Positions 2 to 9,081 of a stretch of 11,355 nt of DNA are shown here, piece by piece. How positions within the stretch are numbered: the first letter of the stretch is position 1; each line of letters begins with the position of its first letter. Under the pieces are notes generated by a model. The model had not been told where the DNA came from and did not search any database. It saw nothing but the letters and a program-made list of their open reading frames with translations. Made by a program: the position numbers and the translations under genes. This DNA comes from Candidatus Altarchaeota archaeon (lineage in GTDB: Archaea; SpSt-1190), in assembly GCA_030590165.1 (NCBI GenBank), contig JAUUZA010000021.1, positions 1 through 11,355 on the forward strand, written 5' to 3'.

Positions 2-1834
2 GGTTGGCTTCCTGGCCGAACTGAGGATACCTTTGTTTTTGCAGTTAATATAAAACAAGAACCAGGTGTTTGTGTTGAAATGATTGAGGATACTAGGGTT
101 GAAAGTGAAATTACATTTCTTAAAGAAAGAGTAAATCATTTTACATATACAATTAATTATTTTGCAGAAAGAGGAATAGTTGAAATTGGAATAGAAGAGG
201 GAAAACCAGGAATTGCCATATCGGGTGATTGTTTTCAAGTAAGAGAAAATCTTAAAGAGAGAATTCAAAACTTAGAACGTGAAATTAGAATTGCTGATGA
301 AAACAATAGGATTTTGATAGTTCGTGAATTAAAACAATTATTATATCACGAAATTGAAAGACTTGATGGTTTGAATTGTGAACAAGAGGTTCCACAGGAA
401 ATGATGTCTTCTTTGGCAACATGTGTTAGTCAGAGACTTGAGTTTGAAAATAAAATTAGAAGTTTGAAATTATTAGTAAATAAAGCAGAAGAAGCGGGTG
501 AATTTGGTATTGCTACTGTAACTCGGGAACGAATTGAAGAGCTTGCTAAGCAGCTTGAGGATCTTCCGTCTGTTGAAAGATGTAATATTGTTTTGAAATC
601 TGTTGATGAAACTTCAATGATACAAAGTAGATTTTCTCAATATATTGAACGAATGAGAAACATGGAATATAGACTTCAGTTATTGAATCCATGTTCAAAA
701 GTTGAGAGTTTAGATGGTCAACTTAGGGACATGAAATTAAATCTTGAAATGGTAAGTGATGAAGAAAAAGAAGTTATTGAATCAAAGATTGGTGCATTTA
801 TTGAAATAAGAAATACAATGTACCGAGCGTGTGAAGAATTAAAAGAAAATTCAGAATGTACTGATGCTTTGAAACTTCGTGAACACTTAATTAGTCTTGC
901 AAAAGATATGGATTTAGAAAATGTAGATATTGAAGACGCTAAAAGAAAAGCCGAAGATTTATTAAGAAAATTTGCAGAACTTGAAAGAAGTTGTTTCAAT
1001 CAAATGGGAATGATGATGAATGAACATCCCTGTATGGCAGCACAGGTTTTGGAAATTGAAATGAATAGATTAACAGATTTGAATGAAGCAGGGGATTCAC
1101 TTGGTTTGCTTTATGAAAAAGCAAGAGAGTACAGGGAACAATGTGTTCGAGAAAGTAATATAGAAGTAATAAGAGAACAGGCTCGAGAAAAATTAAATGA
1201 AGGTAATCAAGACAATAGGGCAGAGGTGGCTCAGTTGGTTGGTGAACTTGAACTTAAGAAACACATGATTCTTGCAGATGACACCTTATCTGGGCAAGAG
1301 AGAAGTCGGCTTATTGGTGAAATAGAAACTGAGAAAGTTAGACTGATAAAAGAACTTATTTCCCAAGGTGGAACAGCAAGAGTTTCTAGTGCAATTAAAC
1401 TGAGATTTGCACCAAATAGTTTAGAAATTGAAGGCGAACAAGTTATTGGAACTGCAACAATCTTGGAAATTCCAACGACTGAAGGTGAAAATATGGAAGT
1501 TACTATTGGCGCCGAAGAAGTTGAAATGAAAACAAGAAGAGTGAATGTTCAAGCTAAGATTGCGCTTGATTTTGAAAATGGTGTACTTAAGATTGGAGGA
1601 ATTGCCATAAAGTTACCGGATGAAATTATGGATGAAGTAGATGCAGAACTTGGTGAACTTGAACTTAAAGAAGATGAAGATGGAACAGCTATTTATGAAG
1701 GAAATATTAAAAAGAAATATAAACTTTTTGCAATAGTTCCAATAAATGCAAATGTTTTCATGAGGGCGGATGCCACCCTTGGAAATATTCTTGAAGAACG
1801 AAAGCCTTGGTGGACAATTTTTGCAACGGAATAA
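2..1834 (+). CDS. Partial large helical, Cys-bearing, probably secreted/surface protein with C-terminal beta domain (5' end outside window)
   Basis: The frame is open with no stop from base 2, so this is the last 610 residues of a longer protein. The first ATG at base 80 is probably internal, because the 26 residues before it look like ordinary protein (GWLPGRTEDTFVF...). Residues about 40-460 are mostly charged amphipathic helix, compatible with coiled coil or helical hairpins, and carry ten cysteines spread about every 40-50 residues (near 77, 126, 141, 194, 231, 277, 286, 331, 344 and 381). Residues about 461-610 are beta-rich and cysteine-free, and end in KPWWTIFATE. No membrane segment is visible. 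A signal peptide, if present, would lie upstream. The cysteine spread, without a metal-site pattern, suggests disulfides and an extracytoplasmic location (inference). From memory, similar C-terminal beta domains ending in Pro-Trp-Trp occur in secreted DPANN proteins; I cannot verify this here. Function unknown. A tandem terminator follows directly. Confidence 0.8.
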   Translation, partial: GWLPGRTEDTFVFAVNIKQEPGVCVEMIEDTRVESEITFLKERVNHFTYTINYFAERGIVEIGIEEGKPGIAISGDCFQVRENLKERIQNLEREIRIADENNRILIVRELKQLLYHEIERLDGLNCEQEVPQEMMSSLATCVSQRLEFENKIRSLKLLVNKAEEAGEFGIATVTRERIEELAKQLEDLPSVERCNIVLKSVDETSMIQSRFSQYIERMRNMEYRLQLLNPCSKVESLDGQLRDMKLNLEMVSDEEKEVIESKIGAFIEIRNTMYRACEELKENSECTDALKLREHLISLAKDMDLENVDIEDAKRKAEDLLRKFAELERSCFNQMGMMMNEHPCMAAQVLEIEMNRLTDLNEAGDSLGLLYEKAREYREQCVRESNIEVIREQAREKLNEGNQDNRAEVAQLVGELELKKHMILADDTLSGQERSRLIGEIETEKVRLIKELISQGGTARVSSAIKLRFAPNSLEIEGEQVIGTATILEIPTTEGENMEVTIGAEEVEMKTRRVNVQAKIALDFENGVLKIGGIAIKLPDEIMDEVDAELGELELKEDEDGTAIYEGNIKKKYKLFAIVPINANVFMRADATLGNILEERKPWWTIFATE

Positions 1835-7364: not shown

Positions 7365-7378
7365 TGGCTTCCATTGGT

Positions 7379-7387
7379 TATATAAAC
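7379..7387 (+). promoter_or_regulatory. TATA box of the first tandem small-protein gene
   Basis: TATATAAAC, preceded by GGT, is a near-consensus archaeal TATA box. It is centred 25 bases before the ATG at 7408 and favours that ATG over the internal ATG at 7450. Confidence 0.68.
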
Positions 7388-7407: not shown

Positions 7408-7722
7408 ATGTTATCGCTTACCTGTCGTGAAACTTCCTTTGTTTATAGAATGTTTATTGCTCCTTCTTATGTTTCCTATAATTTGGCAGTAGAAATTGCA
7501 AGACGTGCAGAACAACGCCTTTTTGAAGTTGCGGTAGAGAATTCAGTGAATGCTTTTGTAAAACGAGTTGTTAGACGCAACGGTGAATATAATGCAATTG
7601 TTGTAGTTGAATCTCAAGACCGTATTCTTGTTGAAAAAGTAATTAAAGAAGTTGAAGCTAGGACTGTTAAGATGGGGCTTAAAATTATTAATTTACTCAA
7701 ATACGAACTCAAACAATTCTAA
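7408..7722 (+). CDS. Small protein of unknown function, first of a tandem related pair
   Basis: I do not recognise this 104-residue protein. The predicted order is strand (FVYRMFIAP, 11-19), helix (NLAVEIARRAEQRLFEVA), two strands forming a hairpin (NAFVKRVVRRN and EYNAIVVVES, about 48-70), and a long C-terminal helix (from about 71 to 104). The next gene encodes a clear relative sharing N-[AV]-F-x-K-[RK]-V, G-[ED]-Y-x-A-I-[VI]-V-[VI]-E-S and V-E-x-R-T with nearly the same spacing. There is no signal peptide or metal site; the single cysteine is C6. The strand-helix-strand-strand-helix order resembles Pcc1/CTAG or other ferredoxin-like folds, but the Pcc1 signature (L-R-A...N-S) is absent, so I do not assign it. 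The ATG at 7408 is supported by a strong TATA box. Confidence 0.8.
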   Translation: MLSLTCRETSFVYRMFIAPSYVSYNLAVEIARRAEQRLFEVAVENSVNAFVKRVVRRNGEYNAIVVVESQDRILVEKVIKEVEARTVKMGLKIINLLKYELKQF

Positions 7723-7773
7723 GTATTACTGGCAGGTAGTCCGAAAGCCATTAATCAATTTGAGTTGTATTCT

Positions 7774-8085
7774 ATGGTGAAAATAATTCAATACAATACT
7801 CATACTGCTTTAGTTGAAGTTTATCTTGCACCGGGGATAGTTTCACCAGATGTGGTTCATCCTTTAATTGAAAAGTTTGAAGTGATGCTTGCTGAATTTT
7901 CCAATAATGTTTTTCTAAAAAAAGTTTATAAGAAAGGGGATTATTTTGCAATTATAGTTATTGAAAGTAATAAATTTGATGATGTTGTTTCAATTGGATT
8001 GCGTGTTGAAAAAAGAACGAGGCAAGTTTCGTCAATAGTTAAAAGTTCAGTTTTTGCAGCTATTAACCGCCTAGGACAAATTTAA
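7774..8085 (+). CDS. Small protein of unknown function, second of a tandem related pair
   Basis: This 103-residue relative of the preceding protein shares the AP-x2-VS turn, NVFLKKVYKKGDYFAIIVIE (positions about 46-65) and VEKRT, spaced almost as in the first copy. The two are widely diverged elsewhere, so this is an old duplication. The helix after the first strand is four residues shorter, and this copy has no cysteine. The start chosen is ATG 7774; a TTG nine bases earlier is in frame but less likely. A weak TATA-like ATTAAT (7750-7755) lies 21-22 bases before the ATG. The gene may be read from its own weak promoter or with its neighbour across the 51-base gap. Its last 23 bases overlap the end of the convergent membrane protease gene. 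Such pairs often form heterodimers; that is inference. Confidence 0.78.
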   Translation: MVKIIQYNTHTALVEVYLAPGIVSPDVVHPLIEKFEVMLAEFSNNVFLKKVYKKGDYFAIIVIESNKFDDVVSIGLRVEKRTRQVSSIVKSSVFAAINRLGQI

Positions 8086-8664: not shown

Positions 8665-8670
8665 CTTTTG

Positions 8671-9081
8671 ATGAAACCGTTTTGGTTGACTGAGCAAGAA
8701 GAGATTTTAGAGAAAAGCAGTAAAAAAGGGGTTTTGATTGTTGTTTCAGATGATGAGTCGGCACAAAGAATGTTGGAGATGTTGGTGTCAATAAATAAAC
8801 AATTAAAAAATGAAGCTTGGTTTTTTCTGAATTTTGAAGGAAAGAGTGATATTGGTTATATTCCAGTGTTTTTTGTAAAGCCAAAACTCTTTGATTTAGA
8901 GGCAGATGATAGGATTCAAGTTATTCCACTTGGAACAAATATTCCAAAACTTATTGGGATTGAAGCTCTTGATAAAACTAATGTGTCTCATCTAATTTTA
9001 AAAATGCAAGTTATTGAAAAAGAAGAAATTAAGGAAGAAATTCCCGATTCTCAATCTTCTCAGGAAGATAAACTTCACTGA
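8671..9081 (+). CDS. Hypothetical cytoplasmic protein, cysteine-free, possible degenerate thioredoxin-like fold
   Basis: I do not recognise this 136-residue protein. It alternates predicted strands and helices: KGVLIVVSDD, a helix over AQRMLEMLVSINKQL, AWFFLNF, YIPVFFV and RIQVIPL. The order, with the YIPVFFV segment resembling a cis-proline strand, faintly recalls a thioredoxin-type fold. There is no cysteine anywhere, so any such domain would be redox-inactive. The last 25 residues or so are acidic, Lys/Glu/Ser-rich and probably disordered. The start is ATG 8671; the TTG directly before it is less likely, and a TATA-like element sits 26.5 bases upstream of the ATG. It diverges from the membrane protease within 35 bases and overlaps the end of top6A by 53 bases, tail to tail. 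The fold suggestion is weak. Confidence 0.75.
   Translation: MKPFWLTEQEEILEKSSKKGVLIVVSDDESAQRMLEMLVSINKQLKNEAWFFLNFEGKSDIGYIPVFFVKPKLFDLEADDRIQVIPLGTNIPKLIGIEALDKTNVSHLILKMQVIEKEEIKEEIPDSQSSQEDKLH

Follow-up and report, generated by a model that had tools for sequence, protein, structure and literature searches.

Pcc2 is a paralogue of Pcc1 in the KEOPS complex and, within DPANN, has been found only in Altiarchaeota (PMC9889334). It carries an acidic pair, D/E72-D/E73, in helix 2, and the authors indicated that divergent Pcc2 orthologues may have been missed (PMC9889334). Here we analyze two adjacent genes, A and B, from an 11,355-nucleotide stretch of archaeal DNA (the window), which is contig C27 of a 724-kb MAG that is 87.6% complete. 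Because the predicted order of elements is the same as in Pcc1, and because Pcc2 in DPANN is reported only from Altiarchaeota, Pcc1 was the known family tested hardest.

A tandem pair of paralogous genes

Gene A occupies positions 7408–7722 (+ strand) and encodes 104 aa. Gene B occupies 7774–8085 (+ strand) and encodes 103 aa counted from the ATG at 7774, with an alternative TTG start at 7765. A preliminary description had proposed a tandem paralogous pair that shares a hairpin motif and a following VExRT, and both proposals held. The motif reads NAFVKRVVRRNGEYNAIVVVES in A, followed by VEART, and NVFLKKVYKKGDYFAIIVIES in B, followed by VEKRT. Core identity between the two proteins is 33%. Their Smith-Waterman score was 76, whereas shuffled sequences averaged 30.0 (sd 5.6, z 8.2) and none of 5000 shuffles reached 76; the local alignment spans ‘MFIAPSYVS...VEART’ of A and ‘VYLAPGIVS...VEKRT’ of B. 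A profile built from only the seven B-type proteins recovered A at 49.7 bits, and hhalign of the B-type profile against A gave a probability of 97.3 (E 1.8e-11). The in-frame codon scores (A, 0.342; B, 0.339) each exceeded those of all other frames of the same stretch. A and B are genuine genes and true paralogues.

All eight proteins are identical in six columns (A19, E36, N45, F47, A59, and E64 in B numbering). The B orthologues further keep F35, D56, R83, and A96, and A is altered at each: F35 is replaced by A, R83 by V, and A96 by E, and the D56 column adjoins an alignment gap, so that it may correspond to a shifted E in A. Conserved in the B family are also a basic hairpin strand, N-x-F-[LV]-[KR]-[KR], and a basic patch in helix 2, E-[KR]-[KR]-x-R.

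Distribution, gene order, and origin of A

The seven genomes of the family are all incomplete (72–90%). Three of the relatives are public MAG contigs, two deposited as Candidatus Altiarchaeota and one as DPANN group archaeon. A search with a profile of all eight proteins found a single-copy B-type orthologue in each of the seven genomes, to which the window genome adds A. No A-like second copy was found by profile search in the six relatives (72–90% complete), and each relative's copy is nearer to B (Smith-Waterman 119–257) than to A (61–119).

Outside the family, the same profile yielded no convincing relative of A or B in the rest of the 394 genomes covered, including three from other families of the same class. 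Just two hits reached E ≤ 0.01, with 15–16 bits each, and both were rejected: one sits inside a 216-aa frame that appears to encode a methyltransferase, and the frame of the other carries two stop codons. Viral contigs contained no relatives, and the surroundings of TopoVI-A in other families of the class held no B-like gene. A scan of public genome contigs with the B sequence alone gave no match; with the alignment as query it gave three, all from the same family. Since B occurs in every family genome and A only in that of the window, the B-type family is an ordinary orphan confined to one lineage, rather than an ancient pair found universally.

These results do not agree with the ancient duplication and the general heterodimer suggested by the preliminary description. 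Six of the seven family genomes have the B-type copy only, at the same conserved locus, and the confinement of A to the window genome means that the family does not, in general, rely on an obligate A:B heterodimer. The generality implied by the preliminary description fails in that the second copy is absent from 6/6 relatives, although the hairpin motif is kept in their single copies.

The gene order in the relatives, with names by Pfam, is largely kept: wyosine radical-SAM, mannose-1-P guanylyltransferase, thioredoxin-like, ferredoxin, alpha/beta hydrolase, udg, B, M50, small protein, TopoVI-A, ATP-grasp, and HAD. The stretch udg-B-M50-(small gene)-TopoVI-A-ATP-grasp is found in four relatives; in a fifth the contig stops within M50, and a sixth has no udg near B. 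In three genomes no alpha/beta hydrolase gene lies near B. B and the M50 protease gene are convergent in 7/7 family genomes, abutting or overlapping; in the window, their 3' ends overlap by 23 bases (8063–8085).

Other genes of the window were noted. A large protein at 2–1834 (+ strand), open at the window start and 584 aa long if counted from its ATG at 80, has no Pfam match. Judged by its long runs of charged, apparently helical sequence, it may be a coiled-coil protein that is secreted or lies at the surface, and the versions in relatives have 739–772 aa and a signal-peptide-like N-terminus (L046:1088–3403, L047:5436–7652). A DUF2797 protein is encoded at 1912–2742 (− strand), between the genes for the large protein and the wyosine radical-SAM enzyme, with its gene start overlapping that of the latter gene; it is absent from this place in L046 and L047. 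Between M50 and TopoVI-A lies a gene for a 137-aa protein (8668–9081, + strand) without Pfam match, which has weak orthologues (~30% identity) at the corresponding position of L046 and L048.

The spacing around B bears on the origin of A. In the five relatives with udg at the locus, the udg-B gap is only ~50–85 bases, which leaves no room for a counterpart of A. In the window, udg and A are 70 bases apart, and the A-B spacer (7723–7773, + strand) has 51 bases. A TATA-box-like TTATATAAA at 7378–7386 (+ strand), ~25 bases upstream of the ATG of A, is a putative promoter of this gene, from which the transcript would be nearly leaderless. The spacer contains TGGCA (7730–7734) and an ATTAA-type element; it aligns with the upstream element of the single-copy relatives and may represent the ancestral promoter of B. 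The absence of A in relatives and the retention of this promoter-like element before B point to A as a lineage-specific tandem duplicate, and the simplest reading is that gene and promoter were duplicated together, in tandem, in the lineage of the window. To assume that the duplication is older and that A was lost repeatedly is less parsimonious. In a tree of the eight short sequences, A has a branch of ~5 changes per site, versus a median end branch of 0.98. No branch of this tree is strongly supported and the long branch of A floats, so the tree does not prove the lineage-specific duplication.

The long branch, the changes at several B-invariant sites, and the occurrence in a single genome would also be expected if A were a functionless, decaying duplicate. 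We consider this very doubtful, since the frame of A is intact, its codon usage is as good as that of B, and it has the TATA-like element, the conserved hairpin, and the predicted fold.

Predicted fold and searches against known families

Searches of Pfam, NCBIfam, PHROG, PADLOC, and PDB sequences assigned A and B to no named family, which bears out the initial statement that the pair has no recognizable match. The B-type proteins are a real, undescribed family.

An AlphaFold model of B made with five sequences (pLDDT 84.2, pTM 0.68) has a β-α-β-β-α order, with strands at 2–7, 11–19, 46–54, and 56–64 and helices at 25–42 and 68–101; the last helix has 34 residues and no strand after it. The first reading of the sequence, a Pcc1-like order of elements without the Pcc1 signature, agrees with this prediction and with the absence of the signature. 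For a joint model, the single TAA between A and B was read as glycine. Both halves show the same β-α-β-β-α order; with a pTM of 0.50 and pLDDT below 50 in the linker, the arrangement of the domains carries no meaning, and the structural matches of this model were generic.

Foldseek with the B model gave no match at E ≤ 0.001. With a second structural aligner, the top row was the C-terminal segment of Pyrococcus abyssi aIF2-alpha (Z 8.4, rmsd 2.2 Å, 77 residues aligned), tied within 1 Z with mechanosensitive-channel domains, TON_0450, and designed ferredoxin folds. A Z of about 8 is typical of a common arrangement and no fold match stands out; the predicted topology is ferredoxin-like and common to many proteins, including Pcc1. 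The aIF2-alpha row is what could suggest that B derives from the C-terminal domain of this factor. We regard such a descent as extremely unlikely and rejected it, given the unrelated folds at the same level, an hhalign probability of 2.9% over 14 columns against the group's own aIF2-alpha C-terminal region, and a full-length aIF2-alpha elsewhere in the window genome. The identification of A and B as eS24 (PF01282) was likewise rejected: neither hmmscan nor hhalign matched it, the TM-score was ~0.3, and a genuine eS24 is present at G000:C33.

KH and ribosomal proteins were also among the weak fold matches. These, together with the N-x-F-[LV]-[KR]-[KR]-[VIA] strand and the basic helix-2 patch, would be compatible with a pair of proteins that bind RNA or DNA through the basic first hairpin strand. 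In related loci the neighbors include translation-related genes, for a wyosine-synthesis radical SAM enzyme and for L15e and a tRNA methyltransferase, the latter two judged from their N-termini only. We nevertheless think a nucleic acid-binding pair rather unlikely: the weak fold matches are generic, with de novo designs and metabolic enzymes among them, sequence searches matched no RNA-binding family, and the basic strand, with its alternating hydrophobic residues, may be buried in part.

The identification of A and B as Pcc1 was negative in both profile and pairwise tests. PF09341 was found by hmmscan in 0/8 family members, and hhalign of the B family against the archaeal sequences from PF09341 hits gave a probability of 0.9–1.0, whereas the positive control, two Altiarchaeota Pcc1 rows against other Pcc1, gave 96.4. 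Pairwise scores of A and B with Pcc1 were no better than those of shuffles. No Pcc1 chain is among the structural matches listed for B, which says nothing against a Pcc1 fold. The window genome has a separate, canonical Pcc1 beside a prefoldin-beta-like gene (L092, G000:C35:17178–17417, − strand); in this group, prefoldin-beta is the neighbor of the KEOPS Pcc1. The helix-2 signature of this protein is VYSLLR, compared with VNSWLR in G005 and G006, and the PF09341 search missed it.

This canonical Pcc1 could be the mate of B if B were a strongly diverged Pcc2, a fifth KEOPS subunit, which would use helix 2 and strand 1 to pair with it and would block KEOPS superdimers, with A as an extra cap. 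The predicted element order of B would fit, and the B-bearing genomes yielded no second Pcc1-family gene. Within DPANN, Pcc2 is reported from Altiarchaeota only, and divergent orthologues might have escaped notice (PMC9889334). Even so, we hold this to be quite unlikely in view of the profile and shuffle results above. The helix-2 positions matching the acidic pair of Pcc2 read A/G-x in the B family, so that the pair is not evident, by a hand alignment that is not reliable as an alignment to Pcc2; helix 2 of B has ~34 residues, and gene linkage to KEOPS was not seen. There is only a slim chance that the family's missing KEOPS cap, of the Pcc2/Gon7 type, is B in highly diverged form, with a tandem duplication in the window genome; if it were, the Pcc2/Gon7 story would reach lineages without a known cap.

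A candidate adaptor and its comparison with known systems

The explanation that we tentatively prefer, while rating it slightly below an even chance, is that B, a small protein restricted to the family, is a non-enzymatic adaptor that associates with itself, and that A arose from it by tandem duplication in the window's lineage and diverged. Paralogy, distribution, synteny, coding potential, and the predicted fold come from computation, whereas dimerization, partner binding, and the role of A are inferences. In this reading, B is a single-copy housekeeping gene with a constant position next to the M50 protease gene, usually together with udg. B may form a homodimer through its three-stranded sheet and long C-terminal helix, and its basic hairpin strand and helix-2 patch could hold RNA or a protein complex as the partner. 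A, with its own TATA-like element, would have arisen in the window's lineage and evolved faster, with the fold and hairpin retained and several B-invariant residues altered. Probably it either pairs with B and thereby modifies it or has acquired a role of its own.

B is a conserved single-copy protein of a DPANN family with reduced genomes, in a gene order fixed over seven genomes, and the lineage-specific tandem copy could show how small proteins of this kind diverge. As matters stand, B counts as another lineage-restricted orphan of common fold.

The pair resembles Pcc1/Pcc2 of KEOPS (PF09341) in its size (~80–100 aa), its β-α-β-β-α order, and its being a paralogous pair in archaea. It differs in having no profile or pairwise match and no L-R-A-x-x-N-S in helix 2; the canonical Pcc1 of the genome sits elsewhere, and A is known from one genome. 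The a/eIF2-alpha C-terminal domain (1yz7) gives the best structural row for B, but with 13% identity, and B is a free-standing gene. Several of the top Foldseek rows are eS24, although at the low TM-score given above. TON_0450 of Thermococcus onnurineus (3ueb), for which a literature search found no function, has 8–11% identity and no match in the PDB sequence search. It is nevertheless, like A and B, a free-standing archaeal protein, of ~104 residues, of which 89 align with B (Z 7.7) and with A (Z 8.2).
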